Below, piece after piece: positions 467 to 64,000 of a stretch of 64,000 nucleotides of DNA. The stretch lies in assembly GCF_020667835.1 (NCBI RefSeq), contig NZ_JAFMPR010000009.1:56649-120648 (forward strand), given 5' to 3'. Every line of letters starts with the position of its first letter. The first letter of the stretch is position 1. The stretch comes from Roseibaca sp. Y0-43. GTDB taxonomy: Bacteria; Pseudomonadota; Alphaproteobacteria; Rhodobacterales; Rhodobacteraceae. A program made the translations under genes and the position numbers. The notes under the pieces are model-generated. The model saw only the letters and a program-made list of their open reading frames with translations. It was not told the origin of the DNA and ran no database searches.

Positions 467-1881
467 TACGACCCCTTTTCCTGCGAGGATGTAGTATCAA
501 GGCCGCGCAGCGCATCGACCACGCGCGATACACGGCTGCCCTTGGACCCTTTGACAAGCACGACATCGCCCGGCGCGACCAGATGATGGGCGTGATCGAC
601 CAGCGCCTCGGCGGTGTCGACCCGTTTGCCGCGCTGGCGGGCGGGAAGCGCTGCGTGCAAGCTGGCCATGCGCGGCCCGACACAATGGACAAGGCGGATT
701 TGCGGCATCGCTGAGTCTTGCGCAAGCGCTTTGTGCATGGCCAGTTCATCGGGGCCAAGCTCCAGCATATCGCCAAGGATCGCGATGCGCCGCCCGCCGG
801 GACCGGGGGTTGCCTGCGCCAGCAGCGCGAGCGCGGCTGTCATCGAGGCGGGGTTGGCGTTGAACGCGTCGTCGATCAGGGTAAAGCGCGCATCCTCGAC
901 CGGGTCGAGCAGGATGTCCTGCCGCAAGCCCCGGCCCGCGGGCGGCTGCCAGCGCCCCAAGGCATGGGCCGCGCGTGCAAGATCCAGCCCCAGCGCATGG
1001 GCCGCGCCGAGGCAGGCCAGCGCGTTGGTCGCGGCATGAACACCAGAATTGACCAGGCGCACAGCCAGCGCCATGCGGCCGACCTTGGCGCGGACGACCA
1101 GCGCGGTTTCGGTCTGGCGGATGTCATGCAGGTGCAGGGGCACATCGCCTGCACCAAAGGGCAGGCAGGTGGCGGCATGGGCTTTGGCGGCGGCATCGAG
1201 GATCGGGCTGGTGGGCAGGTCGGCGGGGTAAATCGCCGTGCCGCCGGGTTCCAGCCCGGCAAAGATACTTGCCTTTTCCTGCGCTATCGCTTCCAGACTG
1301 CCCAAGGATTCAAGGTGCGCGGGCGCTATCGCTGTCACTATTGCAACATTTGGCCGGGCTAGCGTGGTCAGGGGTTCAATCTCGCCCGCATTGCTCATGC
1401 CCATCTCGATCACGGCGAAATCGGCATCTTGCGGCAAGCGTGCCAGCGTGATCGGAACGCCCCAATGGTTATTGAAACTGGCCTCTGCGGCATGGACCTT
1501 ACCGAATTCCGCCAGCATCTCGCGCGCCATGTCCTTGGTCGAGGTCTTGCCGACCGACCCGGTGATCCCGATGACCTTGGCCTTGGACCGCGCGCGGCCC
1601 GCTGCGCCGAGTGCGCGCAGCCCCTCCAGAACGTCGGGCACGACCAGAAGCGGCGCATCATCCGCCACACCTTCGGGTCTGCGCGACACCAACGCCGCGC
1701 CTGCGCCCTTGGAAAGCGCGTCGACCACGAAATCATGCCCGTCACGGGCGGCGGTCAGGGCCACGAACAAATCGCCCGGTTGCAGGCTGCGCGTGTCGAT
1801 GGAAATGCCCGTGACCAGCCAGTCGCCGGTCGCCTTGCCCCCGGTGGCCGCAGCGGCGTCAGGCGCAGTCCAGAGGGTCAT
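466..1881 (-). CDS. murF: MurF, UDP-MurNAc-tripeptide:D-Ala-D-Ala ligase
   Basis: The 471-residue protein is normal length for MurF, the cytoplasmic ATP-dependent ligase that adds D-Ala-D-Ala to UDP-MurNAc-tripeptide. Seen: a short N-terminal substrate domain, the Mur-ligase P-loop [13 protein letters not shown] near residues 105-117, the conserved NNHWG(V/I)P segment near 138-144, and a C-terminal ligase domain with [11 protein letters not shown] near 335-345. The start overlaps the end of murE by four bases (ATGA), and the stop touches the mraY ATG, as expected for coupled dcw genes. No anomaly was seen. Confidence 0.97.
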
Positions 1882-3362: not shown

Positions 3363-3457
3363 GCGCGGGTTCCTTCAAACAGCCGGGGCATGGGGCGGAT
3401 TGCCGTTCTGTTACCCCGTTTTGGCGCACGGGTTCAATGGCCCGCATGGCGCGGTGG

Positions 3458-5245: not shown

Positions 5246-5625
5246 GGCTGCTCCTCGGATGCGGGGTCGGTCGTGCCCGACAGGGTTTGCAACGCGCCAA
5301 ACACTTCTATGCCCTCGCCCACCTGCAGATGCGCTTGCGGGGCGGGATAGGCGATGTCGCCGATCTCTCCGAAATGGTCAGCGGTGATGGGCACCAGCCT
5401 GAGCGTGTCGAAATTGAAATCCACAAGCGCGCGCAGCCGGTCGGGGCGGTTCAGATAGGCCCATTCCACCCGCTGCACGGAAATCTCGGCCTCTAGCCGG
5501 GAAATTTCACGCTCCAGGCTCGTGCGCATGTTCATCGCTTGCTGCGTCAGGTGGTTCTCGCGATAGGCCCATGTCGCAAGCCCGATCACGGCCAGCGCGG
5601 TCAATAGATACAGAATGCTTCGCAT
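5242..5625 (-). CDS. ftsL: FtsL, divisome membrane protein
   Basis: A 127-residue bitopic protein: a membrane segment at residues 4-20 (LYLLTALAVIGLATW), then a heptad-rich helix with SLEREISRLEAEISVQR at about 38-54, then a short periplasmic tail. FtsL family members diverge strongly in sequence, so the call rests on this architecture and on the position between rsmH and ftsI. FtsL forms the FtsQLB complex that activates septal FtsWI. It starts three bases after the rsmH stop and overlaps ftsI. Confidence 0.85.
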   Translation of the reverse strand: MRSILYLLTALAVIGLATWAYRENHLTQQAMNMRTSLEREISRLEAEISVQRVEWAYLNRPDRLRALVDFNFDTLRLVPITADHFGEIGDIAYPAPQAHLQVGEGIEVFGALQTLSGTTDPASEEQP

Positions 5626-5628
5626 GGC

Positions 5629-6606
5629 TTACACCTCTGTCATTCGGGGCAGTCCCAGCCCGCTGCGGTCGGCAGGCCCGGCGGGCGCATCGGTGCGCAA
5701 GGCCAGCCGCAACCGGGCCGAGCGCGCGCGCGGGTTCAGCGCCAGTTCCGCGTCATCCGCCGCAATGCCCTTCTTTTCCAATAGCTTGAAGCGCGCCTCT
5801 GTCTGCGGGGCCTCGGGTGCGAAGCGGTTCCCGCCGCCCCCCTGCCCCGCACGCTGCGCGAGGAAGCGCTTCACGATCCGGTCTTCGAGCGAATGAAAGC
5901 TGACCACAGCAAGCTTGCCACCGGGCTTGAGCGCGCGCTCTGCCGCTTCCAGCCCATCGACCAGCGCGTCGAATTCCGCGTTCACGGCAATGCGCAAGCC
6001 CTGAAAGCTGCGCGTGGCCGGGTGGCTTTGACCGGGCTTGGGGCGCGGCAGGCAGGCCGCGACGATCTGCGCCAGCTGGCCAGTGCGCTCGATGGGCGCG
6101 TCTTGCCGGGCTTTCACGATGGCGCGGGCAATGCGGCGGCTGGCACGTTCCTCGCCGTAATGGAACAGGATATCGGCCAGCACTTCCTCCGAGGCGGTGT
6201 TGACGATGTCGCGCGCCGAGCGGCCCGATTGCGACATGCGCATGTCCAGCGGCCCGTCCTTGGAAAAGGAAAACCCCCGCTCGGGCAGGTCCAGCTGCAT
6301 ACTCGACACGCCCAGATCCAGCACGATGCCATCCAACGGCCCGCCTGCATGTTCGTCCAGCTGCGCGAAATTGCCCGCCACAAGGCGCAAACGGTCGCCA
6401 TACTCCGCGCCCCAGTCGCGCGCCATGTCCAGCGCCAGCGGGTCGCGATCCACCCCGATCACCTGCGCCGCGCCCGCCTGCAACAGCGCCCGCGCATAGC
6501 CGCCCGCGCCCAATGTGCCATCCAGCCAGACCCCGGAAATCGGGGCCAGATGCGTCAGGATGGGGGTTAGCAGAACCGGGATATGGGGGCTTGCGTCTTG
6601 CATCAC
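5629..6606 (-). CDS. rsmH: RsmH (MraW), 16S rRNA m4C1402 N4-methyltransferase
   Basis: The 325-residue SAM-dependent methyltransferase carries HIPVLL near residue 8, the SAM-binding [13 protein letters not shown] near 30-42, the [11 protein letters not shown] motif near 105, and the C-terminal [15 protein letters not shown] typical of RsmH. It modifies C1402 in the ribosomal P site. It begins two bases after mraZ ends and is followed three bases later by ftsL, so it is part of the same transcript. Confidence 0.96.
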
Positions 6607-14650: not shown

Positions 14651-15520
14651 GTGCTACCGATCATTGGAATTGTGCTCGTCGTCGGTCTGGTCTTCGGCGG
14701 CTATCTTGGGGCCGGCGGGTCCATGACGATCATCCTCAAGGCGCTGCCCTTCGAGATGGTGATGATCTGCGGCGCAGCCCTAGGGGCGTTCGTGCTGGGC
14801 AATGACATGGCCACCATCAAGGGCGTCGGGCGCGATATCGGCAAGGTCTTCAAGGGGCCGAAATGGCACGCCCAGGACTACCGCGACCTGCTGTGCCTGC
14901 TGTTCCAGCTTATCTGGCTTGCCCGTCAGAACCCTGTCGCCGTGGAAGAACATATCGAATCGCCAGAGACTTCGAGCATTTTCGGCGCGTATCCGAAAAT
15001 CCAGAAGGACCATGACGCGATCGAGTTGATCTGCGACACGATGCGCGCGGCCTCTATGAACTATGACGATCCGCATCAGGTCGAGGAAGTACTGGATAAA
15101 CGGCTAGAGGCGCAGCGCCATCATGCCCTGCATACCAGCCACGCCGTGCAGGTGGTCGCCGATGCGCTGCCCGCCTTGGGCATCGTCGCGGCCGTGCTGG
15201 GCATTATCAAGACAATGGGCGCAATCGACGAACCGCCAGAGGTCTTGGGCAAGATGATCGGCGGCGCTTTGACCGGAACTTTTCTGGGCGTGTTCCTCGC
15301 CTATGGCTTCGTTGGGCCGATCGCCAGCCGCATGAGCGCCATCGTCGCCGAAGACGACCATTTCTTCCAGCTTATCAGAGAGGTGCTGATCGCCAATCTG
15401 CATGCGCACCCTGCCAATATCTGCATAGAGGTCGGACGGCAGAACACACCGCACCATGTGCGGCCCGAATTCTCGGACCTGGAAGAGGCGATGCGCGAGT
15501 TGAAAAAGGCGGCAGCTTGA
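14651..15520 (+). CDS. motA: MotA, flagellar stator proton-channel subunit
   Basis: The 289-residue protein has the four membrane segments of MotA, with GYLGAGGSMTIILKALPFEMVMI near the start, a large cytoplasmic loop, and the paired helices ADALPALGIVAAVLGIIKTMGAI near residue 177 and GKMIGGALTGTFLGVFLAYGF near 205 that carry conserved channel prolines and glycines. It pairs with MotB to drive rotation with protons. MotB is not in this window. A 112-base gap upstream may hold its own promoter. Confidence 0.96.
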   Translation: MLPIIGIVLVVGLVFGGYLGAGGSMTIILKALPFEMVMICGAALGAFVLGNDMATIKGVGRDIGKVFKGPKWHAQDYRDLLCLLFQLIWLARQNPVAVEEHIESPETSSIFGAYPKIQKDHDAIELICDTMRAASMNYDDPHQVEEVLDKRLEAQRHHALHTSHAVQVVADALPALGIVAAVLGIIKTMGAIDEPPEVLGKMIGGALTGTFLGVFLAYGFVGPIASRMSAIVAEDDHFFQLIREVLIANLHAHPANICIEVGRQNTPHHVRPEFSDLEEAMRELKKAAA

Positions 15521-15523
15521 GCG

Positions 15524-17674
15524 ATGCGCAGACTGATCCAGACCTTTGCAATGTTGCTGACGCTCTGCTCTGCGCACTCCGCTGCTGGCCAACAAAGCGA
15601 AACCATCCTGCGCGCGGGCGAGCATAGCGATTTCACCCGCCTCGTGCTGACTTTGCCCGACCAGGTTTCGTGGCGGCTGGTCCCGCAGGCGGAGTTTGTC
15701 GACCTTATCATCGACGATGCCTCTGTTTCGATCGACGTGTCCCGCACCTTCGACCGCATCCCCCGCACGCGCCTGAAAGAGGTCGAGGCGATGCCGACGG
15801 GCGTGCGGCTCTATCTTGGCTGCGACTGCCCCTTGCGCGTCGTCGAGGGGTTCGCCAGCCAGATCATCGTCGATATCGTCACTCCGCTTCCCGGCGCTGA
15901 CGACCCCGGCATTTTGCCACGCCCGAAACCCCGGCCCAGCCTGACGGCGCAGATCGCAAAGGACGACCGTGTCGCTGCACGCGCGGGCGTAGCCCTGGCG
16001 CAAGCGTTGCGCGCGCCCGGCATGGCCGAGGTCGCACCGGGTTTCGGCATTCGCGCCGAAGACCAGCTTGCCGCACGACAAGCCCCTCCTGCCCCAATTC
16101 CCGACCCAGAGGTGGAAATTCAGGCCCAGCGGCTTCTGCAAGGGCTGACCAAATCGCTTTCGGGGGCCGTTTCCCGTGGCGTGCTGTCGCCAGACCCGGA
16201 TTTTAGAACGGATACCGCCAGCACCGTCGTGTTACCAGACAGCGCCGCCGCGCATTTGCGTGTGGCACCGGGCCCGAATGCGCCGGCCCGGACCCTTCTG
16301 CCAGAACGCTGCGACCAAACGCCAAGCACTCTGCTTGACGCATGGACAAGCCCTACCGAAGGCGGATTGTTCGGCACGGGCTGGGCCTCTCTCTACGACC
16401 CGCTCGACCGGGTCGACCCCGCCCAGGCCCAATCGCTCGCCGCTGCTTTCCTGAGCGCGGGTTTCGGCGCGGAAGCGCGCGCGATCCTTGGCCTGCTGCC
16501 GGCATCAGGGGCAAGAACGCAGCTGGGAAACCTTAGCTACATCATCGACTTGCAGCCACCGCCCAACCCCGAAGTGTTGCTGAAGGTTGCGACATGTTCT
16601 GACGCCGACACGCTCTGGGCCTTCTTGGCAAACCCGCAAGAAACCCTTGCGCAGCCCGATGCCGAAGCGCGCCTTGTGCGCGCGGTGCAAGCCCTGTCGG
16701 CCCCGATGCGCGCGCATCTTGGCCCAAATATCGTGCAGCAGCTTGTGCGAAATAACGCTGCAGAGGCTGCCACGCTCGTCCAGGCGACCCTGCAAAGAAC
16801 AGCGCCCACGCCGGGAGAAGGCATTGAAAACGCGCGCCCCGCGCTCTTGTCGGCCGATCCCGAAGCGATCGCGGATCTCGATACCGCCGCATGGCACACA
16901 TTGAGCGATGCAGAATTTCTGCTCATGCTCGAACATGCCAACGCCCAAGCCCTGCCGCTGCCTGCGGATGGCTTGACCGCCGCGATGAACCGGCAATTCG
17001 CCTTGCGGCGCAGCGACGAAGGTCGCGCCTTCGCAACTGCCACCGCGCGCGCTTTGGCATATGGTGGCATGTTCCCTGAGGCCTTCGAGATCGCCATCTC
17101 TTCCGAGGCCGATCTTTCTGCGGACACACGCGCCCCGCTTCTGGACCATCTCTATTCGCGGCTGGCATCGGCTGCGAACGATACCGATTTCGTCACAAAC
17201 GTGTTCACCCATAGCCCTTGGGAACATGATCTGATCTCTGCCCCGACACGGTCCGAACTTGCCGAACGCCTGAAAGCGTTGGGCTTCGACCGTGAAGCGC
17301 TGGCGCTCACGGACCCGGTCGCGATGCCGGGCCCGACGCAAGATGTGGCAGACCCCACCGCAGCCCCGCCGCGCGCCGAAAGCACCAACCCACGGCCCAG
17401 CGCGCCCGATGGGGCCGCGCCGCCTGTCGAGATGGCCGCAACCAGTGCTGCACCACCGGAGACGGAAGCACAAGACGCCTTGGGCGCAGCCCTGCAAGAC
17501 CCGGCAACGGCAGCGGAAAATAGCGTGCGCGAAACGGAAACCCTTTCCAGCGAAACCCCGCCCTCACCGGCGCAAGCAGACAGCGGGCTTCTGGCGCAAG
17601 GCCGAACGGAGCTGCGTCAATCCGCAGAACTTCGAGCGCAGCTTGCAGCAATACTGGGCGAACCGAATGAGTGA
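15524..17674 (+). CDS. Large secreted protein of unknown function following motA
   Basis: A 716-residue protein with a signal peptide (cleavage near SAHSAAGQQ, residues 20-24). Residues 25-130 have the alternating pattern of an AMIN-like beta domain (LRAGEHSDFTRLVLTLPD, then VRLYLGCDCPLRVVEGF, IIVDIVTPL). The middle is helical and repetitive, and the last ~100 residues are low-complexity Pro/Ala/Thr/Glu. It starts four bases after the motA stop, so it shares that transcript. A MotC-like periplasmic role is possible by position, but I see no clear MotC motif. The name is left open. Confidence 0.75.
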   Translation: MRRLIQTFAMLLTLCSAHSAAGQQSETILRAGEHSDFTRLVLTLPDQVSWRLVPQAEFVDLIIDDASVSIDVSRTFDRIPRTRLKEVEAMPTGVRLYLGCDCPLRVVEGFASQIIVDIVTPLPGADDPGILPRPKPRPSLTAQIAKDDRVAARAGVALAQALRAPGMAEVAPGFGIRAEDQLAARQAPPAPIPDPEVEIQAQRLLQGLTKSLSGAVSRGVLSPDPDFRTDTASTVVLPDSAAAHLRVAPGPNAPARTLLPERCDQTPSTLLDAWTSPTEGGLFGTGWASLYDPLDRVDPAQAQSLAAAFLSAGFGAEARAILGLLPASGARTQLGNLSYIIDLQPPPNPEVLLKVATCSDADTLWAFLANPQETLAQPDAEARLVRAVQALSAPMRAHLGPNIVQQLVRNNAAEAATLVQATLQRTAPTPGEGIENARPALLSADPEAIADLDTAAWHTLSDAEFLLMLEHANAQALPLPADGLTAAMNRQFALRRSDEGRAFATATARALAYGGMFPEAFEIAISSEADLSADTRAPLLDHLYSRLASAANDTDFVTNVFTHSPWEHDLISAPTRSELAERLKALGFDREALALTDPVAMPGPTQDVADPTAAPPRAESTNPRPSAPDGAAPPVEMAATSAAPPETEAQDALGAALQDPATAAENSVRETETLSSETPPSPAQADSGLLAQGRTELRQSAELRAQLAAILGEPNE

Positions 17675-51844: not shown

Positions 51845-52977
51845 GTCTGCTCCTCCCCGGAGGCTGCTGCATGGAGCTTGTCCCCTACGATCGCAACTTC
51901 CTCGGCATTGGGCTCCCGGCCACGCACAACCTTTATGAAGTCGTGGATCATCTCGATCGGCGTGGTCGCAGCCCGGCCTGCGCCAAACGCCTTAGCCTCT
52001 GGCGCGCGCGCCTGCCGGGCGTAGGCCAGATGGCAGGCATTGGGGTAGATCGCACGCAGCCGCTTCATCGGATCGATCAGAGGGACCTCATCCGCCAGTA
52101 TGGCCTGGATAAAGTCTTTAGACGGCGTTCCTGCTAAAAGATCGGAGAATGCCCCAGTGAGGGAGCGCACTTGTCGGTTAGGACGGAACGGCACCGTGCG
52201 AATCTCGGCCCCTCCAGCTTTCAGATCGACAACAGTCATGGATTTTTCGCTTCCCGCCTCGTCGAAACCAAACGCGAGAGGTGCGCCGGAGTATCGAATA
52301 TGACGCGCGCCCACGTCCTGCGGCTTATGCAAATGCCCCAGTGCAACGTAATCCGCCCCGTCGAAGACATCGGAGGGAACAGTTTCGATGCTACCGACTC
52401 GCGTTAGGGCGCGCTCTGTCTCGCCGACCGCGCCGCCCGCAACGAAGGCATGGGCCACTACCACCCAACGCGCTCCTTCGGGCACCTGCCCCCTCGCTGC
52501 GGCGATCTGGGCAGCGATGACATCTGCTGGCGCGCTGATACTCTCATCCCCGAACACCTCGCGCGCGGCGTACTCATAGGAAAAGGGCAGCGCGGAAAAC
52601 GCGATCTCGCCATGTTCGTCACGCAGCACAAGCGGAGCTTCTACCGCGTCGGCGATCCCACGCACCAACACTCGCGACGCAGTGGAAAAGACAGACATTG
52701 CCTCGATCCGATCGCCGGAATCGTGGTTGCCCGAGATCATAACTACGGCGGCTTCGCTCTCCTCCGCTACGCGCTTGAGGAAGCGGTTGAACTGCCGGAT
52801 TGACGAATTGGGCGGAGAGGCACGGTCAAAAATGTCTCCTGCGATCACAAGAACATCGGCCCGTTCGACCACTAACGTTTCAAGAATCTGACCGAGGACG
52901 GCCTCGTGATCCTCCTCGAGGCTCAACCCCATAAATTGCCGCCCCAGGTGCAGGTCCGCCGTATGAAGTATGCGCAT
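51841..52977 (-). CDS. sbcD: SbcD, Mre11-like nuclease subunit
   Basis: 378 residues with the metallophosphoesterase motifs DLHLG (8-12), AGDIFDRASPP near 46, ISGNHDSGDR near 82, VVAHAF near 173 and the final GHLHKPQ near 212. It is the nuclease partner of SbcC. The ATG at 52977 lies 17 bases from the palindrome at 52994-53005, so its promoter overlaps that site. Confidence 0.96.
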   Translation of the reverse strand: MRILHTADLHLGRQFMGLSLEEDHEAVLGQILETLVVERADVLVIAGDIFDRASPPNSSIRQFNRFLKRVAEESEAAVVMISGNHDSGDRIEAMSVFSTASRVLVRGIADAVEAPLVLRDEHGEIAFSALPFSYEYAAREVFGDESISAPADVIAAQIAAARGQVPEGARWVVVAHAFVAGGAVGETERALTRVGSIETVPSDVFDGADYVALGHLHKPQDVGARHIRYSGAPLAFGFDEAGSEKSMTVVDLKAGGAEIRTVPFRPNRQVRSLTGAFSDLLAGTPSKDFIQAILADEVPLIDPMKRLRAIYPNACHLAYARQARAPEAKAFGAGRAATTPIEMIHDFIKVVRGREPNAEEVAIVGDKLHAAASGEEQT

Positions 52978-52993
52978 TTGGTCAATCCACTTT

Positions 52994-53005
52994 CTATACG
53001 TATAG
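52994..53005. promoter_or_regulatory. Perfect palindrome between sbcD and the WYL gene
   Basis: CTATACGTATAG, 12 bases, in the 72-base divergent region (sbcD ATG at 52977, WYL ATG at 53050). WYL regulators of the BrxR/CapW type bind inverted repeats in their own promoter, so this is the likely operator. Confidence 0.6.
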
Positions 53006-53049
53006 TAAATGTATGGACTTCCAGCAGGGAGTCAAGTATTGCTTGGCAC

Positions 53050-53841
53050 ATGACTCTGGAAGCCCTCAAACACGCGCAACGTGAGCGAATTTTGTTCCTC
53101 GACCAATGCCTGACCTGGAGAGGTCAGGCGAACCGTCGTGACTTGATGGAACGGTTCGATATCTCGATGGCACAGGCTGCGGTAGACTTTCGAACCTATC
53201 TATCGCTGACAGGTACGCCGCCAGTCTATGATGCCGCTGAGAAGGCCTATTTTTCTAGCGGCGACCATAACCCGTTGACGGATGCTGGCCCGGAGCAAGT
53301 TTTCGAATTGCTCGATCAAGAGACGCCATCGCTGGGCGCGAGCATCCCTCTTCCTAATCGCGTGATGGAACCCACCGTCGTCGCGCAACTCTACCGAGCC
53401 ATGAAGGGCGAACGAGACATCCAGATTACCTACACCTCGATGACGAGCGGTCTCTCCGGACCGCAGTGGATCAGTCCGGTGCGTTTCCATTTCGACGGAG
53501 AGGCAATTTATCTCCGCGCATGGAGCTATAAGCATGAGACCTACCGCGATTATCTCCCGATACGAATAACTAAGCAAACTGAGGCGGCAACGCGGTACCG
53601 GTCGTCTCCCCTACCGGTTGACACGGACTGGCACAAATTTGTGCGCATGTGGATACGTCCGCGTTCAAATCTATCCGATGCACAGGCGCGGGCTGTCCGG
53701 CTGGAGTACGGCTTTGAAGACAGAACGCACATAAAAATTGAAACTCGGAAGGCGCTTGCATTCTATGTCATCAGGCGGTGGCGTCTGAATCAGGAAAAGG
53801 CCCGGCTTGAGTTGGAAACGATTGAAGACGTGGACGTGTGA
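53050..53841 (+). CDS. WYL-domain transcriptional regulator (BrxR/CapW-like)
   Basis: 263 residues from ATG 53050. The N-terminal winged helix has RERILFLDQCLTWRGQANRRDLMERFDIS near residues 10-40 (split by gaps); the WYL domain follows with EPTVVAQLYRAMKGERDIQITYTSM near 113 and FHFDGEAIYLRAWSYKHETYRDYLPIRI near 148-176; a WCX-type end closes it. Known: such proteins repress phage-defence operons until triggered. Here it faces sbcD and probably represses sbcDC and itself. The frame is open to 52906, but that covers the operator. Confidence 0.85.
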   Translation: MTLEALKHAQRERILFLDQCLTWRGQANRRDLMERFDISMAQAAVDFRTYLSLTGTPPVYDAAEKAYFSSGDHNPLTDAGPEQVFELLDQETPSLGASIPLPNRVMEPTVVAQLYRAMKGERDIQITYTSMTSGLSGPQWISPVRFHFDGEAIYLRAWSYKHETYRDYLPIRITKQTEAATRYRSSPLPVDTDWHKFVRMWIRPRSNLSDAQARAVRLEYGFEDRTHIKIETRKALAFYVIRRWRLNQEKARLELETIEDVDV

Positions 53842-54164
53842 TGGCTTGTACGGTCCATATTGGTCGTCCGCTTGGCCTCAGAGGCTGCGATGTGCATAGG
53901 TTCCATTTTGATAACCGCCGGCCGTACAACTTCCTGACTGCGCCAGGCTCTGCAAACCATGTAATCCCTGGCCACCCCACCCCAAGCACGGGCCATTCGC
54001 ACGTGCAGTGGTGGGCCGCTCCCAGGTCACCCTCTCTCACGGGCCATATTGCGCCCAGGTGCGACCAACTCAGAGGCCTGACAAATGGCCGGAAAATGAT
54101 TCATTGCTCCAGGCTGGAAGCACCCTTCATACTCCGAAGACCTCGCCATAGTTGGTATTAGCTA
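53842..54164 (+). other. Gene-free interval before the PLD-helicase gene
   Basis: 323 bases. A 107-codon open frame (53838-54161) looks non-coding: rich in His/Pro/Arg/Trp with no family feature. The interval contains the first copy of a 19-base repeat (53973-53991). No convincing promoter was found. Confidence 0.5.
53973..53991 (+). repeat. 19-bp direct repeat, left copy
   Basis: CACCCCACCCCAAGCACGG. It differs from the copy at 59941-59959 by one base (A for T). The two copies bracket the PLD-helicase, the acidic protein and the hydrolase. Confidence 0.6.
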
Positions 54165-57100
54165 TTGTTTTCACTTCCGAATTGGCTCCGCTCGAAGCCA
54201 CAGACCATTGAAGAGCCCAAGGCCACTGGGTTGGCCGAGACGGACCTTTCGGGTGGGCCGAAGGTCGGGACCAATATCGACCGCCCTGTCATCGACCTCT
54301 ATCGGCCGCACTTCACGTCTGGCGACTGTCTCATCGTGACCGGCTATCAGGACTTCCTGTCGTCGCTCGCCGTCTTGATGAGAGAGGTCAAGGAGCTCAA
54401 AGACCCTGACGCAGACCCTGACATCCGTATTCGGATATCGTTCGGTATCGATACGGCGAACTCTCGACGGTTGGCAAAGCCGAGGCCGGTGACCGAAGAG
54501 ATGAAGCTCTATTGGCTGGAGAAGTCCGGACTGCAGGTCGAGGATGACGACGATCTGCTGGCGGTGCTGGCAAAGCGGGCGATCCAAACACGCAAGATAG
54601 AGCTTCGTGTGTTTGATCCCGTACTGGCCCAGACCCGCCTGGGGATCTGCGGTGATCGTCGGATGCATTCCAAGATCGTGAGTTCGCGGGTGGGCGCGGT
54701 GGCAGGCTCGGCGAACTTTTCGCGCTCTGGCCTCTACAGCAACATTGAGTACGCGGATGGACTCGATACTGGTTCGCACGAGCTGCAGCTTGAGCGCACC
54801 CGAGCGGCTGAACAGATTTGGGAGGTTTCGGCCGACTGGACCGAAGAAGCGCTCGAAATCCTCGATAGGCTGATAAAGCCTGCAACGGCAGAAGACGCCA
54901 TGGCTCGGATGATCTCGGAGCAAAAGGGCTTCGAGCCCTGGCTGACTGGAGGCCGCCAAGAGATCACCGGCCACACACTCTACGAGTACCAACAGGAGCT
55001 GACCTACGAGGCCTGCTCTATCACATACGATCACGGCATCGCCTTCGTGGAGGCGCCTACAGGCTCGGGGAAAACCGAGATCGGATGCCATCTCGCCGAG
55101 GCTCTATCGGAGACATTTTCACGGGTCATTCCGCGCTCCCCCGTGCATGGCGTCGCCAGGAAGAACGCGGCGGTGATAGCGCCACCCAAGGTCATCCCCA
55201 GCTGGGTGAAGCACTCGACCAACTCCCTAGAGGCCATAGCCAACACGAGTCTGTCAAAGAAGCGCCTGCGAGGGGCCGGCGACGATAGCAAATCGGGTCT
55301 GAGACTCGATCAGTTCGGCGTGCTCATAATCGATGAAAGTCATACAGTGACGCCTGGCTTCGAACAGGCATCCCAGATGGCCGCTGCGGTCGAACTCGCG
55401 CCACCCAGCTGGAACATCTGCTTATCTGCGACCCTTCTGGGCAATCGCGACGTCGACTGGCTTGCCCATATGCAGGAGAAGCGCGCCTCAATCTTCATGA
55501 CCCCGGACTACATCCAGGCCATGGGTGAGCTGTTCGAACGTGAGATGCAAAGTTCCCCCGACATCTTCGATCAGAAGGCGCCACTTGCTGTTCTATCCGA
55601 ACCAGAAACCGCTCTGTCCAGGCAGGCACGTACGGAACTGTCCGAGCTGATTTCGCCCTTTTTGGCACGCCGTCAGCGCCGATGTATTGGCGAGGATGAA
55701 GATCGCTCCAAACACAACTACCCGAAGCTGGCCAATCACGGGCGGCCCAATAGGCTGAAGCTCACGAAGCCCCAGAGGGCGCGTCTCGACGAGATCGTTG
55801 CTCTATGTAACGACCTCGCGCCCGGCGGTAGGGTTACGGCCGTCGAGAAAAGCCGCTTCGGTCACGTCAAGACACAGCAGAGCACCCAGGATCAGCTCCA
55901 TATCCGCAACCTGCTGAATATTCTCCGGGTAAGCGCGGCGCAGGCAGCTTGGGAAATGTCCCATGGAGTCATCGGAAAGTGGCTGAGGGAATTTGAACAA
56001 GGGTCCAAGACCAAGCGGAGGGCGCCACACCCTGGCCAGGTCGACATGTTTGCTCTGCTTGGCATCGATGCGTTGGCGGCCCCCGAAAAGTGCGAGGCCC
56101 TGGCCAAGAAGCTCGACTCGCAGCCGCTGCGAGACCTGGATGAGAAGCGATATGAAGCTTGCCTACGCATCCAGCAGCAGAAGGATCGGGTTGTCTTTCT
56201 CGCAGAGCGCACCGACACGCTCGAAATCTTCGCTGAGGCGCTTTCTCGCCGCGGCCACCACACGAACTTCGTTGTTGGGAACCAGACCAAGGGTGATGAT
56301 AGGGCCGTGAAGGCCATCTTCGGCAGCGGACTGGACGGCTTCCGACGGATCACGCATGGCAAGTCGGTAGAGTCCTACTTCCGCCCTGGGGGCAAGAACG
56401 CACCAGATGGACCAGCCTCAGTTTTTCTCACCTACAAAATGGCGGAGGGCATCAACCTTCAGTCAGCCGACACGCTCGTTCTCCTCGGGGTCACGTCGAA
56501 CCTGAAGGAACTTATCCAGGGATTGGGGCGTATCGACCGGATAGATAGTCAGTTTGGAATTGTGAACTACCACCTCGTCGATGTTCCCGTTGGTCAGTTT
56601 GCATCAGACGAGAAAGTGACCAACCGCATCGAGAACTATCGGACACTCGCAGGGGAAGAGCTGATTGACGTTGTGCAAGAGGTCGGCTCCGAGGACACCG
56701 AGGTGATCTTGGAGAGCGTCACGCGCTACCTCGGATCAACTAGGCGGTTCCGAGACAACAACTTCCACGACGTTCTCGCCCGAACCAAAGAAAAGATTTC
56801 CCCGGAGCGTTACAGTCTCATTAGCAAGGCCAGGATCGAAGGGACTTGGGGCGCTGAATTGGCGCTTCTGTCTGCCAGAGAGAGCTTCACCGCCCTACAT
56901 CTGAAGGGCGTCGACAAGCCGACCAGCTTCTTCCCGCCGCGTTTGCTGCTGCTGCGGCCTTCTGAGACAGGTCTGCTGCTGGAACGGGGTCAGTTGGCCT
57001 GTGCCAAAACACTTGAGTCGGCATACGAGAGAACCAAGAGTCTCGGCTTGGAACAGACGAGGATGACCGAGGAAGATCTGGCTAGTGCGCTTGAAACCGT

Positions 57101-57533
57101 ATCTGGGCAGCTTGGACGGCTCACAGAATGGGACCTGCGTCCGGCACGCGTCGAAAGCCTGATGAAGGCGTGCGCTGAGTTCATGAGCCGACGTGGAGAC
57201 GAGGAAACCGATGATCGAGAGATGTTCGGGCACCTGTCCCTACCCGCCATCGAAATGATCTGCGAGTCGTGGAGCAGGCTGCTCGACCCCTACTGGGAAC
57301 AAGCCAAGCAAGAGGTGCGGGACAGCTTTGCCTATGAGGAGCTGCCGAAGGGGTACATCGCGATCCAGGCGATCCTAGAGAAGCTCGAAACCGACCTTCC
57401 GGGCGCCGACGAAGTCCACAAAAAGATGTCCACGGTTATCGAAGAAGCAGAGCTCGTGTCCAGGGATCACGAGCCGGAGATCGGGCGGCGGATTTCGGTC
57501 GTGTTTTTCTCGGGCGGTACGGGCGAGCACTGA
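54165..57533 (+). CDS. PLD-nuclease / SF2 helicase fusion protein
   Basis: 1122 residues. The N-terminal third is a PLD-like domain with MHSKIVSSRVGAVAGSANFS near residues 167-186 (one HxK motif and the GSxNFS strand). A SNF2/SF2 helicase follows: Walker A EAPTGSGKTEIG near 295, DESH (VLIIDESHTV) near 388, SAT (CLSATLLG) near 425, and motif VI QGLGRIDRID near 783. The C-terminus is unassigned. Likely a DNA/RNA remodelling nuclease of a defence system. Odd: a stop codon at 54159-54161 leaves TTG 54165 or TTG 54228 as start, with no good ribosome-binding site, so the true N-terminus may be missing. Confidence 0.85.
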   Translation: MFSLPNWLRSKPQTIEEPKATGLAETDLSGGPKVGTNIDRPVIDLYRPHFTSGDCLIVTGYQDFLSSLAVLMREVKELKDPDADPDIRIRISFGIDTANSRRLAKPRPVTEEMKLYWLEKSGLQVEDDDDLLAVLAKRAIQTRKIELRVFDPVLAQTRLGICGDRRMHSKIVSSRVGAVAGSANFSRSGLYSNIEYADGLDTGSHELQLERTRAAEQIWEVSADWTEEALEILDRLIKPATAEDAMARMISEQKGFEPWLTGGRQEITGHTLYEYQQELTYEACSITYDHGIAFVEAPTGSGKTEIGCHLAEALSETFSRVIPRSPVHGVARKNAAVIAPPKVIPSWVKHSTNSLEAIANTSLSKKRLRGAGDDSKSGLRLDQFGVLIIDESHTVTPGFEQASQMAAAVELAPPSWNICLSATLLGNRDVDWLAHMQEKRASIFMTPDYIQAMGELFEREMQSSPDIFDQKAPLAVLSEPETALSRQARTELSELISPFLARRQRRCIGEDEDRSKHNYPKLANHGRPNRLKLTKPQRARLDEIVALCNDLAPGGRVTAVEKSRFGHVKTQQSTQDQLHIRNLLNILRVSAAQAAWEMSHGVIGKWLREFEQGSKTKRRAPHPGQVDMFALLGIDALAAPEKCEALAKKLDSQPLRDLDEKRYEACLRIQQQKDRVVFLAERTDTLEIFAEALSRRGHHTNFVVGNQTKGDDRAVKAIFGSGLDGFRRITHGKSVESYFRPGGKNAPDGPASVFLTYKMAEGINLQSADTLVLLGVTSNLKELIQGLGRIDRIDSQFGIVNYHLVDVPVGQFASDEKVTNRIENYRTLAGEELIDVVQEVGSEDTEVILESVTRYLGSTRRFRDNNFHDVLARTKEKISPERYSLISKARIEGTWGAELALLSARESFTALHLKGVDKPTSFFPPRLLLLRPSETGLLLERGQLACAKTLESAYERTKSLGLEQTRMTEEDLASALETVSGQLGRLTEWDLRPARVESLMKACAEFMSRRGDEETDDREMFGHLSLPAIEMICESWSRLLDPYWEQAKQEVRDSFAYEELPKGYIAIQAILEKLETDLPGADEVHKKMSTVIEEAELVSRDHEPEIGRRISVVFFSGGTGEH

Positions 57534-57695
57534 TCGATGTGTGTACCTACAAGGTCCATGATGTTCACTTCTGGCGGCAGCAGAATTAAACGTCTAGCCT
57601 ACACTTGGCCCGAAGGAATCAGGTCAAGAGGCAGGCCTTAATGCCACAATATCAGACTTTTATTTGGGAGCCCGATTAGCTCAAAAATACTTGAA

Positions 57696-59105
57696 ATGTC
57701 CGATGCTGAATTTGGTGTTGGGAGCCGAGGAGCAGTCGCGCGTATGCAGGTCGAGACAACAGGAAGTGCGCGTATTCGCCACAAGGTAACGGGCGTGGTC
57801 TATATGATTGACGCCAATGAACTCGATTGGGAAATTGAGTCGACACACGAGCGTGATATGGGGCCGGAGACCGAATGGTCGGCTGTTCTCAATCACGAAG
57901 ACTTGGGCGAGCTCCTCTGGACCTTCTCTGAGTACCCACAGGGATTTGCAAACGAGCTTAGACTTGTGTCGGACGGGCACAAGGTTCTCAGAAACTTCTC
58001 TGTCAGCTTCGAGGATGTGAACGATGAGAACTCGGTAGACTTCGACCCTGAAGCAGCAGCTGAGGAAATGAAGGAATGGTTTTTCGCAAACTACGAGGAT
58101 CCGGCTAATTCACTGCCCTACATCTCAGCAGAAGGTGGATACCAATGGATCCACGGAAGTGCTTCGACAGCACTCGAAGCGTTGGAGGAAATGTTCTCAG
58201 AAGACTACCCTTTCGACTTCATTGAGAAAGTTGCCCAATCAATAACAGATGAAGCTGGCATATTTGATTGGAGCCCGATCCCAGGGCCGGAGTTGTATGA
58301 AGATGCTGATGAAGTCGAGAATGAAATAAGTGAAGCCGAAAAGCTGAGCAAACGGCTCCCCCTCTTTGAAGACCTAGTTTCTGATCCAGAGCGGGGAATA
58401 TTCAGTGTCCGGCCAAGAGAAATCGCCAAGCCGAGACTTCTTGGTGCGGCTCTGTCTCAAGTAGCCGACGCAATCGAGGATGTACTTGCGAACCCTTCTA
58501 ATGGACTTAACTCCAACTCGCTTGAAATCCGGAGGCTACGTCGGACCCTAGAGCGCTATGCGAACGACCCTCAGCGGATAGAGATGGACTTCACGTCCGT
58601 CCACGGAAGCATAGTTGGGAAGATTGCGACGGAGGAACTACCGCCTTCCGATGAAAATAACGCTCTAGTCAGCGCCTTACGGGAGGGCGCTCAAGGTATC
58701 CGTGCGACCCACGCGGAGGTGGCTGAAAACCGGGAGATCCTACAAGAACAAGCGCTGCGCGAATTCACCGACGAAGAAATCGAGCAAGTTGCGGCGGCTG
58801 GCCCCGTAATCGAGGCAATTACTGAAGGTGAACTTCAAGAGCAAATGCGTGAGGACATCCTGTACCTCACTCAAGACATGCGAAGCGGCCCGCCGCGACG
58901 TTTGCCAGGCGTAACGAGAGCTGACGCAATTATCCAAGGCAGCGACGAAGCTGTTAGAGTCTTTGGGCGCTCAGCTCGAATGATGTTGCTTCTTCGTCGC
59001 TTCCCTGAAGTGGTTGATAGGCTTCATGGGAGCACCGGCTACAAGGCCGCTAGCCTCCTGGCTACGCTGGGCACCTTGGTTTCATTGGGATTTCTTCTTT
59101 TCTAG
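57696..59105 (+). CDS. Acidic protein of unknown function with C-terminal membrane anchor
   Basis: Not recognised. 469 residues, strongly acidic, with long Glu/Asp-rich helical stretches (for example EDADEVENEISEAEKLSK near 205). Beta-type strands fill the first 110 residues. The last 19 residues (AASLLATLGTLVSLGFLLF) are a hydrophobic tail after a basic RSARMMLLLRRF segment, so it is probably anchored in the inner membrane with its bulk in the cytoplasm. It follows the helicase by 162 bases on the same strand. A membrane-linked effector is one possible role. Confidence 0.72.
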   Translation: MSDAEFGVGSRGAVARMQVETTGSARIRHKVTGVVYMIDANELDWEIESTHERDMGPETEWSAVLNHEDLGELLWTFSEYPQGFANELRLVSDGHKVLRNFSVSFEDVNDENSVDFDPEAAAEEMKEWFFANYEDPANSLPYISAEGGYQWIHGSASTALEALEEMFSEDYPFDFIEKVAQSITDEAGIFDWSPIPGPELYEDADEVENEISEAEKLSKRLPLFEDLVSDPERGIFSVRPREIAKPRLLGAALSQVADAIEDVLANPSNGLNSNSLEIRRLRRTLERYANDPQRIEMDFTSVHGSIVGKIATEELPPSDENNALVSALREGAQGIRATHAEVAENREILQEQALREFTDEEIEQVAAAGPVIEAITEGELQEQMREDILYLTQDMRSGPPRRLPGVTRADAIIQGSDEAVRVFGRSARMMLLLRRFPEVVDRLHGSTGYKAASLLATLGTLVSLGFLLF

Positions 59106-60012: not shown

Positions 60013-61956
60013 CTACTTGAGGCGACTATTTTCCAAGCTTGACAGCGTTGCCTTTAGAAGACTGGGATTGCGGCGAACGAACTCAGGAAGGCAAGATCCG
60101 GTGCAGCCCTGAATTGGGCCCTCAGACTTGATTTGCGAAATGCGCCTCTTGCAGCGAGCGCAAGGTACATAAAAGTTTCTCTCTTCTAACTGCCTTGGAG
60201 TGGCAGCCTTACTCCTTGTGTCGAAGTAACTCGGCTGCCACTGCTCTATGAGATCGCCTGGCACGAATTTCCAAAGGTCGCCATGGGACTGGTTTTGCGC
60301 ATCGAACCTCGCGACATTCGTTCTTTGATAGAGGTTGCTGTGCGGCAAAGCTTCAAGTGGACTGTCGGAATCACCCTCACCAGTAACGGAAGGATCGCCC
60401 TGCTTGCGAGTTGGTGAGGCAACATTGGCCAACGAGAGCCCAAATTCGAGGTCGTGGAATTCTTCAGAAGATTGCGCGCCGCGTCCGGTCGACTTCAGAG
60501 TCACTCGAGCAACATAGTCATGGTCAATTTGCAAGTTACATTCGATCCTTTCCAGCAAGGGCTGCGCCTTCGGATCGACCTCGACCTTCGCGACGCATAG
60601 TGATCGTCGCGGATCGTTTGGCGATGCCTTGCCGAGCTTGACTGGCTTTGCCACTTCGACAACCGCGACACCTTCTCGCGGGTCCACACAAAAAAGACGG
60701 GTATTGGCGACATTCTGCGTTTCATTTTCGATTGGCAGCGTCCAACCGGCATCTACGAGAGAGTGGTAAGTCCCCTGCCCAGACGTATCAGCGACGAGAA
60801 TTTCAATCGGCTTTGACAGTGTTAGCCTTAGGCCATCGTTTGCGATCCAGGCTGCGCCCTCAGCGATAATTCGGTCACCGTTTTCAAGCTTTGGCACCCT
60901 GCCCACGAACCGTTCTGTCAGCCCGTCACGAATAGACGGCATATTCACCATGCCGCCGGTAGCAAGGCAAAGCTCAATGTCCTTATAGGTCAATTGCGCT
61001 TGCTCTAGGATTTCATCGATACGGGCGAGACCACGAGCAACAATGCCAGCGCTTAGCTCCTCCAGCTCTGAGCGGGTTACTGAGGCAAGAAGGTTTTTGC
61101 CGGCTCCGTCAGACTTAAGGTAGTTCCTTACGATGACATCTTCAGTTTCCGTTTTTGGATCGGACAAATGGATCTTCAGAATTTCGCACTGGTGTAGGAG
61201 CTTTGCCGCCATTCCCGGTTGTTCGAGGGCTGTAATGTCTTCGATGTTGTGCGCAGAGGAGTGGATTTCCCGAAGGTGGTTCCGCAACCGTTCATCGAAC
61301 TTGTCTCCACCAACTTCGTTGTCACCGAGATTTCTGACCTGCATGATCGCGCCCCCGGATATCCGACAGAGGGTTAGGTCAAGCGTACCTCCACCCCAAT
61401 CGAAAACCAGGATTGACCTACCCTCCAGGCGGGCCAGTTCCCGCCCAAGGTCAGTCTGGGAACGGAGATAGGCATAAAGCGCCGCAACTGGCTCATGGAC
61501 GAATTGCACAACTCCGATGCCGGCCTTTCTGGCCGCTTCGCGAAGAGCTCGACGCTCCGGCCCTGCAAAATCTACCGGGATCGTGAAAACGGCTCGCGCT
61601 AGATCTTGGCCAGGAGCCCCACCACGTGCAGCCTTAGCATCTGATCTCAGATGCTTGAGAACTTCAGCGACAGCATCCGTGGGTTCGATCGGGCGTCCAT
61701 CAACAAAGATTGGGCCTTCACGCCTTAGAGACATCTTAGGAGAGCGAACAAAACCTGGAGGGGCCCCGCTTTCGGTGATGTCCATATTCTGTCGCGCTTC
61801 GCGACCTACAACTATGTCCGAGCCTCGGTACCAGATTACCGAGGGGTGCGGACGCCGGGTGACCTGGTCGACAAGCGCGAGTGCACGCCCTCCAACAGCG
61901 ACTGCGGCGAGACTGTTTGTAGTTCCGAAGTCGACCCCAAAGATTGTCTCGCTCAT
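60013..61956 (-). CDS. Hsp70-family ATPase with a C-terminal four-cysteine zinc-ribbon-like end
   Basis: 647 residues. The ATPase domain is complete: FGVDFGTTNSLAAV near 6-19, IPVDFAGPERRALREAARKAG near 127, ILVFDWGGGTLDLTLCRI near 187 and the adenosine loop LATGGMVNMPSIRDGL near 337. The substrate part is short and unlike DnaK, with a poorly conserved middle. The end has CARC (599-602) and CTGSC (618-622), a C-X2-C-X15-C-X3-C zinc-ribbon-like arrangement absent from housekeeping Hsp70. ATGA overlap with the coiled-coil gene indicates coupled expression. Last gene of the operon. Confidence 0.87.
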   Translation of the reverse strand: MSETIFGVDFGTTNSLAAVAVGGRALALVDQVTRRPHPSVIWYRGSDIVVGREARQNMDITESGAPPGFVRSPKMSLRREGPIFVDGRPIEPTDAVAEVLKHLRSDAKAARGGAPGQDLARAVFTIPVDFAGPERRALREAARKAGIGVVQFVHEPVAALYAYLRSQTDLGRELARLEGRSILVFDWGGGTLDLTLCRISGGAIMQVRNLGDNEVGGDKFDERLRNHLREIHSSAHNIEDITALEQPGMAAKLLHQCEILKIHLSDPKTETEDVIVRNYLKSDGAGKNLLASVTRSELEELSAGIVARGLARIDEILEQAQLTYKDIELCLATGGMVNMPSIRDGLTERFVGRVPKLENGDRIIAEGAAWIANDGLRLTLSKPIEILVADTSGQGTYHSLVDAGWTLPIENETQNVANTRLFCVDPREGVAVVEVAKPVKLGKASPNDPRRSLCVAKVEVDPKAQPLLERIECNLQIDHDYVARVTLKSTGRGAQSSEEFHDLEFGLSLANVASPTRKQGDPSVTGEGDSDSPLEALPHSNLYQRTNVARFDAQNQSHGDLWKFVPGDLIEQWQPSYFDTRSKAATPRQLEERNFYVPCARCKRRISQIKSEGPIQGCTGSCLPEFVRRNPSLLKATLSSLENSRLK

Positions 61957-62978
61957 TCTTTAGCCTCTTCTATCGCCGAAAGCGCTGCTTTGACTCGCCG
62001 AAGTGCAATACCCGGTGCTGGCGGCTCAATCTCTAGGGCATCGATGGCGTCTTCCAGAAGGGGGCCTAAGCGCTCTCCAAGAAGAACCTTCTGTTCAGCT
62101 TTCGTTTCGGTCAGATCGTGTCCCCAATGCTGACGTTCAGTTGCTAGCGTTTCCTCGAGCTTTGAGATTTCTGCCTCGTGATCGGATATCGTACTTTTCG
62201 CGTTAGCAAGCTCGGCGTTGAGCCTCTCCACTTGATCTCGAGTACTGTCCAGCCGGTGCCTCAAGTCGTTGGCGATGTTTCTCTCACGGTTGCGATCTTC
62301 TTCTGCAACCTTGACCAGCTGCTCACCAAGTCCTGCAACAGCTACCGCAAGGCGCAACTCCCCAATTTTCCCTCTTTGAACGGCACGCTTCGCCGCCTTG
62401 GAGGCAGATTTCAAATCAGAGAAAAGAATTGGTTGAAGTTGCTCGGCTACCTGCCAGGTCCTGAGCGACCGCTTTTCCATCAACCAGCAAATGGTGATCC
62501 GAAGTAGCGTCTCAGACCTCTTCCTCTCTTCTTTTTCGTCAGAAGAAAGGGAGGGTGAAATGGTCGCCAAAACCGACCTGAAGATGCGCCCCGCGTCATG
62601 ATCCAGTGGATCGAATGCATCTTTCAAGTGTTCCTTTACGCGGGCCTGAGCGGCGCCCCAGATCCAATCATCGACAGCATCAGGCGGAGTTGATTGCGAC
62701 ATCAACGCCCAAAGCCGCTCACAGTCCCGGTCCTGTCGGCGCATCAATTCTCCGGCTTCTTCTCTATCAGCCGAAAGAAACCGCTTTACCTGATTCTTAC
62801 GAATAACCTTGAAGAATGCGGAAGGCGTCACCCGTGAGTCTTTGAAATATCCCGTCAAAGTTGGATCAACATCGGCCTCAGCTTCGACTTTTACATCAGA
62901 CTGAGATTGGTCGGGCGCACTTGTGGATATTTTCTGTCCTGCCGGGTTGGCCTCCGGCGTCTCTCTCTCTTGAGTCAC
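61953..62978 (-). CDS. Coiled-coil protein of the Hsp70-like operon
   Basis: Not recognised. 341 residues from the GTG at 62978, which makes a GTGA overlap with the upstream gene; ATG 63011 would overlap more and has no ribosome-binding site. The N-terminal 40 residues are disordered, a mixed helical middle follows (VTPSAFFKVIRKNQVKRFL), then a coiled coil of about 70 residues (DRNRERNIANDLRHRLDSTRD onward in heptads) and a helical end. The layout recalls GrpE-like nucleotide-exchange factors, but no GrpE motif is visible. Probably a partner of the Hsp70. Confidence 0.75.
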   Translation of the reverse strand: MTQERETPEANPAGQKISTSAPDQSQSDVKVEAEADVDPTLTGYFKDSRVTPSAFFKVIRKNQVKRFLSADREEAGELMRRQDRDCERLWALMSQSTPPDAVDDWIWGAAQARVKEHLKDAFDPLDHDAGRIFRSVLATISPSLSSDEKEERKRSETLLRITICWLMEKRSLRTWQVAEQLQPILFSDLKSASKAAKRAVQRGKIGELRLAVAVAGLGEQLVKVAEEDRNRERNIANDLRHRLDSTRDQVERLNAELANAKSTISDHEAEISKLEETLATERQHWGHDLTETKAEQKVLLGERLGPLLEDAIDALEIEPPAPGIALRRVKAALSAIEEAKE

Positions 62979-63880
62979 GTCGATACTTGCTCCAGGTATT
63001 TGCCGGCCCATTGGCTGAAAGGGTAGATTCCCGCTATGTGTCTGAGTGGTTCCAGAGCACTATCTCTTGAACTCAGTCTCCAGGCTGAAGCTGCCCAAAT
63101 GGCGAAAGCCTTCTGGTGGTCGCTAACGTCAAGTAGGTCGGAATTTGCCAGCACACGGCACTCATCCTGGAGAATCGGGCTCCACCGCGGCTGTGCCGAC
63201 AGATTTGCAGCCAGTTCGAGCATTCTGCCCGTGCCATGATCGATTGGGCAAACCGCGCGCCTTTCTTTCTCTTCAAACTCGATCTGAGGAGCGATCGAGC
63301 TTGGATCAAGAAGCAGCTGGGTTGCCAAATCAAGCTCCCAATATCCCGTGCGCTTCTGGTCGTCACTAAAGTCGTTCATCGAAAAGCGGATAATTTTCTC
63401 GATAAGATGGGCGAGGGGGCGTTGAATATCCTTAAGAACCTGCAACGCACTGCCATAGAGCTCTCGGTATCGAGAAAGTGGAGTTGTCAGTCTTTCGCCC
63501 TCAGGCCGCTCCTTAAGAAGAATCCCCAGACAATAATCAGCCAGCCCGGACGCATATTCTTTGCCAGCGTCACACGTCCTTGGATCAGCAAGAAATCTAC
63601 TAATTGCTTCGCGAGAAATTGAACTCGACACGAGTATTTCGGTGAATGCCTCTTCAACCGCCTTTAATGCTTCTAGTCCAGCAACTCGGAAAGAAATGCT
63701 GTAGTGAGACAGAACTGGAGCTGCGTGTCTTTCAGAGGCATTAACCAACTTCAATCTAACCTCTGCTTGCCTTACCTTCGCAAGAATGGCCCTGAGCTCC
63801 TCGGCAGAAACTTTCTTTGCCGCCCCACCATCGATGCTTAATTCTGCGTAACTTGCGTTCGCCACAACAACATCTGACAT
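62975..63880 (-). CDS. Unknown protein, first gene of the Hsp70-like operon, 5' region altered by an IS
   Basis: Not recognised. From ATG 63880 the product has 301 residues, MSDVVVANASYAELSIDGGAAKKV then a mostly helical body with no catalytic signature. The frame is open to ATG 63955, but bases from 63906 belong to the end of an IS3-family element, so the first 18 or so codons of the longer form (MTQYPYFWVSGKQG...) are insertion-sequence DNA. The native start is thus either 63880 or lost. Four-base overlap with the coiled-coil gene links all three genes. Confidence 0.7.
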   Translation of the reverse strand: MSDVVVANASYAELSIDGGAAKKVSAEELRAILAKVRQAEVRLKLVNASERHAAPVLSHYSISFRVAGLEALKAVEEAFTEILVSSSISREAISRFLADPRTCDAGKEYASGLADYCLGILLKERPEGERLTTPLSRYRELYGSALQVLKDIQRPLAHLIEKIIRFSMNDFSDDQKRTGYWELDLATQLLLDPSSIAPQIEFEEKERRAVCPIDHGTGRMLELAANLSAQPRWSPILQDECRVLANSDLLDVSDHQKAFAIWAASAWRLSSRDSALEPLRHIAGIYPFSQWAGKYLEQVST

Positions 63881-63905
63881 GCTAATTACGCTGCGAACAA
63901 CATCA

Positions 63906-64000
63906 TGAACCGCCCCTTGTTTGCCGGAGACCCAGAAGTAAGGATACTGGGTCATGGGAAAGATGAAGAACGGAACACGTTATCCAGAGGAACTGCGCGC
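63906..64000 (+). mobile_element. IS3-family insertion sequence, left end (partial)
   Basis: TGAACCGCCCCTTGTTTGCC at 63906-63925, followed by GGAGACC, matches the terminal inverted repeat pattern of IS3-group elements such as IS911 (TGAACCGCCCC...GGAGA). A transposase frame starts 57 bases inside the tip, the usual distance. The element runs off the right edge. Confidence 0.8.
63963..64000 (+). CDS. IS3-family transposase OrfA (first codons only)
   Basis: ATG 63963 opens MKNGTRYPEELR, the typical start of the small OrfA DNA-binding protein of IS3-family elements. Only 12 codons are inside the window. GGGAAAG directly precedes the start. OrfA provides the helix-turn-helix that binds the element ends; the catalytic OrfB would follow. 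Confidence 0.75.
   Translation, partial: MKNGTRYPEELR

Follow-up and report, generated by a model that had tools for sequence, protein, structure and literature searches.

The window analysed here is a stretch of 64,000 nucleotides from Roseibaca sp. Y0-43, and it forms the right end of contig C54 (120,648 bases) in an assembly of 3.03 Mb. Close to the contig end, three open reading frames (ORFs) lie on the minus strand and are read towards lower coordinates in the order gene 1, gene 2 and an Hsp70 gene. By sequence comparison, the trio is a genuine conserved cassette, composed of a protein with a C2H2 motif, a coiled-coil protein and an Hsp70-type ATPase. The features of the locus were as follows.

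60013..61956, minus strand: gene 3, Hsp70-type ATPase of 647 amino acids (PF00012 match and catalytic residues)
60091..60162, minus strand: cysteine cluster at the C-terminus of the Hsp70 (residues 599-622), with a spacing that resembles a zinc ribbon
61953..62978, minus strand: gene 2, 341 amino acids from a GTG start, with a helical domain, one 112-residue helix and a conserved C-terminal helix (ORF, homologues and AlphaFold)
62975..63905, minus strand: 3' portion of gene 1, beginning near codon 74 (profile match and mapped boundary)
63906..64000, no strand assigned: end of the IS3-family insertion sequence (IS) that interrupts gene 1 (the same bases open contigs C2, C6 and C8)

An earlier note, made from the window alone, had described three genes overlapping by four bases each. 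Both junctions were confirmed. The stop codon of gene 1 shares GTGA with the GTG start of gene 2 at 62978, and the stop codon of gene 2 shares ATGA with the ATG start of the Hsp70 gene. A pattern-based scan with the gene 1 alignment returned 13 loci from a genome collection of 84,980 species and 2 loci from IMG/VR (together L005-L019). Gene 2 followed gene 1 directly in all 15 loci, and the Hsp70 gene came next in 13, a contig end cutting it in two of them. In L011 the contig stopped inside gene 2, and in L012 the Hsp70 was spread over two frames. L016 held a full-length gene 1, 78 matched residues of gene 2 and no Hsp70 within the 10 kb examined downstream; it is possibly a decayed copy of the cassette. 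ATGA or GTGA was found at the junction of gene 1 and gene 2 in 15/15 loci and at the junction of gene 2 and Hsp70 in 12/13, L015 having a one-base overlap there. Kept in this way among relatives, the overlaps exceed what chance would produce.

The name variant B was given to relatives whose Hsp70 is about 38-40% identical to that of the window. They were located on two Paenarthrobacter plasmids classed as conjugative (L031 and L042, with identical accessions for gene 2 and Hsp70), in other Pseudomonadota genomes (L032, L040, L046, L047 and L048) and on two IMG/VR contigs (L036 and L037), which gave a total of 25 cassette records with the window's genome included. The junctions of variant B overlapped in part: L040 had four-base overlaps at both, while in L036 gene 1 and gene 2 were separated by a gap, and in L032 a single base intervened before Hsp70. 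Across the 14 loci with three full proteins among those then collected, the distances of the three proteins correlated at 0.98, 0.97 and 0.93, and none of 2000 permutations reached values as high. The three-gene order therefore recurs in distant bacteria with matched divergence. The trio was conserved as a unit and its homologues were not found as subunits of a described system, the two points on which the earlier note had staked its reading.

The cassette was rare. With the query genomes counted in, it was present in 1/385 genomes of the class, 2/398 of the phylum, 3/390 of the order (with gene 2) and 1/100 relatives, and in 0/36 among the congeners listed; the Hsp70 tail alignment gave 2/369, 4/171 and 1/36 genomes in the variant-B groups. 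Phage records gave nothing beyond partial Hsp70 matches, which covered 55-56% of the query and lay in four unannotated records. The IMG/VR contigs L019, with a McrB-like gene, and L037, with bacteriophage exclusion (BREX) genes, look like bacterial islands.

The Hsp70 matched PF00012 with 177.6 bits (cut-off 20.6). Residues D9, T12, T13, K74, E155, D186, T191 and D193, as aligned to DnaK, were kept in 15/15 Hsp70 sequences of both variants. By its ATPase domain, catalytic residues included, the protein is a member of the Hsp70 superfamily, and the intact ATPase read by the earlier note was borne out. The DnaK equivalog TIGR02350 was not reached (158 bits against a cut-off of 822.55), and a housekeeping DnaK scoring 913.5 bits is encoded elsewhere in the genome. 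Matches to DnaK chains in the PDB ended near residue 498, so that the usual helical lid is not evident by sequence. The four C-terminal cysteines noted before were located at positions 599, 602, 618 and 622. The first three were present in 15/15 sequences and C622 in 11/15; the four sequences lacking it, all of variant B, had a closer CxC spacing instead.

A CxxC-x12-H-x3-5-H motif of the C2H2 type was found in 24/24 proteins of the gene 1 family (L042 left out). The zf-Di19 family stayed below its cut-off for the gene 1 proteins P0003 and P0073. The confident AlphaFold monomer of the Roseovarius copy P0003 (predicted local distance difference test, pLDDT, 88.3) showed beta strands at about residues 62-146 and helices at 150-381. 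The gene 2 monomer, also confident (pLDDT 86.5), comprised a helical domain, one long helix of 112 residues and a further helix at the C-terminus; gene 2 had 96 homologues at E ≤ 0.001. Fold searches returned no strong match. Gene 1 is predicted to be an adaptor with a zinc finger, an immunoglobulin-like part and a tetratricopeptide-repeat-like part that recognises a target, and gene 2 is predicted to be a HEAT-like coiled-coil scaffold. No nuclease or toxin family was recognised in the three proteins. At E ≤ 1, Hsp70 and gene 1 matched none of the PADLOC families, and gene 2 gave coiled-coil matches only, the best at 0.003; with no convincing PADLOC match for the trio, the earlier view that no named system fits it was upheld. 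None of the family libraries consulted has a name for the trio.

Gene 2 was also considered as a GrpE-like exchange factor, a role the earlier note had suggested. This idea found no sequence support and was rejected, as GrpE (PF01025) was not in the Pfam list of gene 2 at E ≤ 1. One relative (P0304) had a sub-threshold GrpE match (13.6 against 25.8 bits, E 0.054). PF28256 was listed for two gene 2 relatives in one search and was not reported on a rescan of both, a discrepancy left unexplained.

In five of the 25 records (L032, L037, L046, L047 and L048), pglX, gene 1, gene 2, Hsp70, pglZ and brxL follow one another on one strand. Encoding within a core operon, by which accessory modules are recognised, was thus observed in 5/25 records. 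In L037, gene 1 starts 2 bases after pglX and the Hsp70 gene overlaps pglZ by ATGA. A DUF262 (GmrSD-family) gene is also placed between pglX and pglZ in L047, after the cassette, and in L048, before it. In L049, which belongs to the same bacterial family as L032 and has a BrxL 95% identical to that of L032, a DUF262 gene occupies the slot and the cassette is absent. The cassette was found in 4/171 genomes of that family, all four copies inside BREX, and BrxL in 13/121 genomes of a separate draw, two of them known carriers of the cassette. Its absence from the BREX operon of L049 and its presence in records without BREX indicate that the cassette is not part of the BREX core. Since it stands between pglX and pglZ, in a place shared or taken by a GmrSD-family gene, the cassette is, on gene order, the occupant of an accessory slot of a defence operon. 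BrxU, a GmrSD enzyme, is reported to provide complementary phage protection beside BREX (PMC8565348).

Several other features of these operons were recorded. In L046, pglX (83-5859) is in pieces around ORFs that look transposase-like by eye, and the cassette is open. Between brxC and pglX, L032 (14156-15868) and L047 (16861-18573) encode a 570-amino-acid protein, Schlafen-like by eye; ATPase-like and PIN-like ORFs, also judged by eye, are found in that interval of L049 instead.

Recognised restriction or defence genes were near the cassette in 18/25 records. BREX genes were found in the window's genome, L005, L032, L037, L046, L047 and L048, DUF499 systems in L009 and L014, and McrB in L006, L008, L010 and L019. 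A type III restriction enzyme was found in L011, Argonaute with DrmB in L012, and GmrSD-family genes in L017, L031 and L042. In a PADLOC scan of neighbours, 21/40 proteins matched at E ≤ 1e-40 compared with 1/10 control proteins from outside the island in the window, the latter an orphan methyltransferase. The defence-island setting that the earlier note had proposed was thereby supported. Two of the 21 matches, the RecD2-like helicase of L018 and the UvrD/GajB-like one of L007, need not be defence genes. In 12/25 records the cassette shared its strand with restriction genes, from which it was separated by no more than about 170 bases. In L006, L008 and L010 a McrB-like gene begins 23 bases after Hsp70. 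The type III enzyme of L011 ends 30 bases before gene 1, and the DUF499 protein of L014 lies 70 bases before it. This link to restriction operons, to BREX above all, is one that lay beyond the sight of a reading confined to a single window.

The McrB-like genes of L006 (6704-8959) and L008 (5365-6378, in pieces) were about 87-91% identical to that of L010 (4915-7170), which has an EVE-domain match and is followed by McrC. In L031, a fourth gene (15220-16560) follows Hsp70 and encodes a hypothetical protein of 446 amino acids with long helical stretches by eye; it had no match in any other locus tested.

The gene 1 copy of the window was found to be incomplete. Full-length homologues have about 370-382 amino acids, and compared with the 382-residue form the window's ORF is 56 residues shorter at the front. 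Positions 59-382 of the gene 1 profile matched the end of C54, and positions 1-74 matched the end of contig C44. On C44, a similar inverted repeat comes after the first 73 and two-thirds codons of gene 1. The window's final 95 bases (63906-64000) are repeated, as stretches of 93-94 bases with 100% identity open contigs C2, C6 and C8, and the match to the repeated sequence ends at base 63906. In the plasmid collection, nine records contained this IS end, mostly under genes annotated as IS3 family transposase. The two gene 1 pieces on C54 and C44, together with the repeated IS end, indicate that gene 1 of Roseibaca sp. Y0-43 is split by an IS3-family element; the contig break at gene 1 is a usual effect of a repeated element on assembly. 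Gene 1 as a complete protein of 326 amino acids was ruled out, its initial residues being read from the insertion sequence, and gene 1 truly starts neither at 63880, where the earlier note ended the operon, nor at 63955, where the ORF begins. The first protein, which that note had called unrecognised, is the interrupted remnant of a C2H2-motif protein.

As gene 1 is an IS-interrupted copy, the cassette of the window's own genome is probably not working. The conserved unit and the defence setting of the earlier note were thus sustained; the intact gene 1 and the exchange factor were not, nor, probably, is the trio functional in this genome. IS3 elements split gene 1 at about codon 73 in the window, about codon 220 in L031 (9911-12293) and about codon 110 in L042 (6460-8845). 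All three IS3 insertions within trios hit gene 1, which may hint at a cost of this gene or may merely reflect IS-rich replicons.

Upstream of gene 1, C44 encodes a tyrosine integrase, a Prim-Pol protein and, as judged by eye, an exonuclease-like protein, together with a BREX operon of brxA, brxB, brxC, pglX, pglZ and brxL (PADLOC E values from 4.7e-52 to 0), and a tRNA-Thr gene stands at the far end of the island. On the other side of the cassette, in the window, an alpha/beta hydrolase is encoded.

We propose that the cassette serves DNA-restriction defence as an accessory module, and that its Hsp70 would be an ATP-driven clamp that remodels a protein delivered by the C2H2-motif protein; in our estimate the case for this reading and the case against it are evenly balanced. 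The putative defence role, protection against phage, rests on gene neighbourhood. In the proposed mechanism, the C2H2-motif protein would recognise the target and hand it to Hsp70, gene 2 would serve as scaffold or co-factor, and the Hsp70 clamp would bind or unfold a protein of the phage or of a restriction complex at the expense of ATP. Candidate clients are a phage anti-restriction protein and a phage replication or packaging complex. The module would act on proteins and would not cut nucleic acid. Its favoured role would be to counter phage proteins that blunt restriction, or to disable phage complexes on DNA. A protein-directed role is favoured because the trio has no recognised nuclease family and its partners are mostly DNA-restriction systems.

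Several observations weigh against this proposal. No recognised defence gene was among the proteins examined in L013, L015, L036 and L040 (4/25 records), and the defence context was ambiguous in L007, L016 and L018 (3/25). The 40 scanned neighbours were chosen mainly by size and not at random, and the control was small. Four of the BREX-embedded copies come from one family and are related to each other. The unrelated restriction types beside the cassette speak against one fixed partner, the fold labels of gene 1 and gene 2 are loose and rest on weak matches, and IS3-family elements split gene 1 in 3/25 records.

The main rival, which we consider unlikely, is a stand-alone anti-phage system that only shares islands with others, its C2H2 protein sensing infection and its Hsp70 and coiled-coil protein driving growth arrest. 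The presence of the same trio next to six or more kinds of defence genes would suit such a system, as would L040, in which the trio stands by itself next to a tRNA-Arg gene and an integrase-like gene (by eye), and the IS3 cuts at three different points of gene 1 in three records, as a costly gene might suffer. However, the close same-strand placement with restriction genes in 12/25 records, down to the overlap with pglZ in L037, argues for a tie to those operons, and neither a toxin nor a nuclease family was recognised in the trio. A chaperone that assembles large restriction complexes of the BREX kind or controls their quality, with no immune action of its own, could also explain the operon placement in BREX, DUF499, McrB and type III restriction-modification loci. 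This is improbable, as the closely similar BREX operon of L049 lacks the cassette, BrxL (13/121) exceeds the cassette (4/171) in the family mentioned above, and four records have no recognised defence gene. The genuine Hsp70 ATPase domain would allow an ordinary stress chaperone hitch-hiking on mobile islands; we regard this as highly improbable in view of the separate housekeeping DnaK, the score of the cassette Hsp70 far below the DnaK equivalog cut-off, and the rarity of the cassette (1/385, 1/100 and 2/398 genomes).

A further explanation takes its lead from CnuD of type III CoCoNuTs (Bell et al. 2024, PMC11090510), the nearest precedent, in the parts of the literature covered, for an Hsp70-like protein in restriction islands. 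The cassette would then be an RNA-directed module, as proposed for CnuD, with an Hsp70 that binds aberrant or viral RNA. An Hsp70-like protein together with HEAT-like and coiled-coil parts is common to the CnuD systems and the cassette, and zinc-binding parts also occur in CoCoNuTs according to the sections covered. However, CnuD is described there with degenerate ATPase motifs and with McrB GTPases of the NxD clade, whereas the catalytic residues of the cassette Hsp70 were kept in 15/15 sequences, a comparison made with the description of CnuD only. The three McrB neighbours read by eye had NTAD (L006 and L010) or NIAD (L019), all of the NxxD form, and most of the 25 records had no McrB in the stretch examined. 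Membership of the CoCoNuTs was rejected on the NxxD motif and the intact ATPase residues, and RNA-directed action is quite improbable.

The proposed accessory restriction module can be compared with known auxiliary genes, as described in the parts of the cited papers covered here. BrxU/GmrSD enzymes accompany type I BREX genes (Picton et al. 2021, PMC8565348; PMC12839542), and the cassette resembles genes of the BrxU type in that a DUF262 gene shares or replaces it in the pglX-pglZ slot. BrxU is a nuclease, whereas the cassette has no recognised nuclease family. PARIS and other auxiliary effectors (PMC12839542) are back-up modules within BREX and DUF499 loci, as the cassette may be; those listed for BREX are nucleases or nuclease-ATPase pairs, unlike the Hsp70-based cassette. 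The main text of this 2026 BREX survey contained no mention of hsp, dnak, chaperone, tpr or c2h2. bNACHT25 likewise ties Hsp70/DnaJ chaperones to phage detection (PMC12169576), but there a NACHT protein uses the host's own DnaJ, while the cassette carries a dedicated Hsp70 in the island. No description of the trio was found in the literature searched, which was mostly PMC with few subscription journals or outside preprints.

It is possible, though somewhat doubtful, that the cassette represents an undescribed immune machine, in which an Hsp70, a C2H2 targeting protein and a coiled-coil co-factor act as a plug-in of BREX and other restriction systems by ATP-driven remodelling of phage proteins. 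If so, phage anti-restriction DNA mimics or replication complexes would be remodelled and nucleic acid would stay uncut, and restriction systems may in this way withstand phage inhibitors. The presence of a chaperone cassette in the slot of a type IV restriction gene suggests a second back-up of restriction, one that works through proteins. The compact three-gene unit and the natural BREX operons with and without it provide material for comparison.

A further set of genes lies beside the trio in the window, at 52906-59105. It includes a gene resembling WYL-type regulators (by eye), a helicase of 1122 amino acids with ResIII/DEAD and weak PLD-like matches, and a protein of 469 amino acids with a HEPN/RES-NTD1-like stretch just below the cut-off. 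These genes may form a separate defence module.

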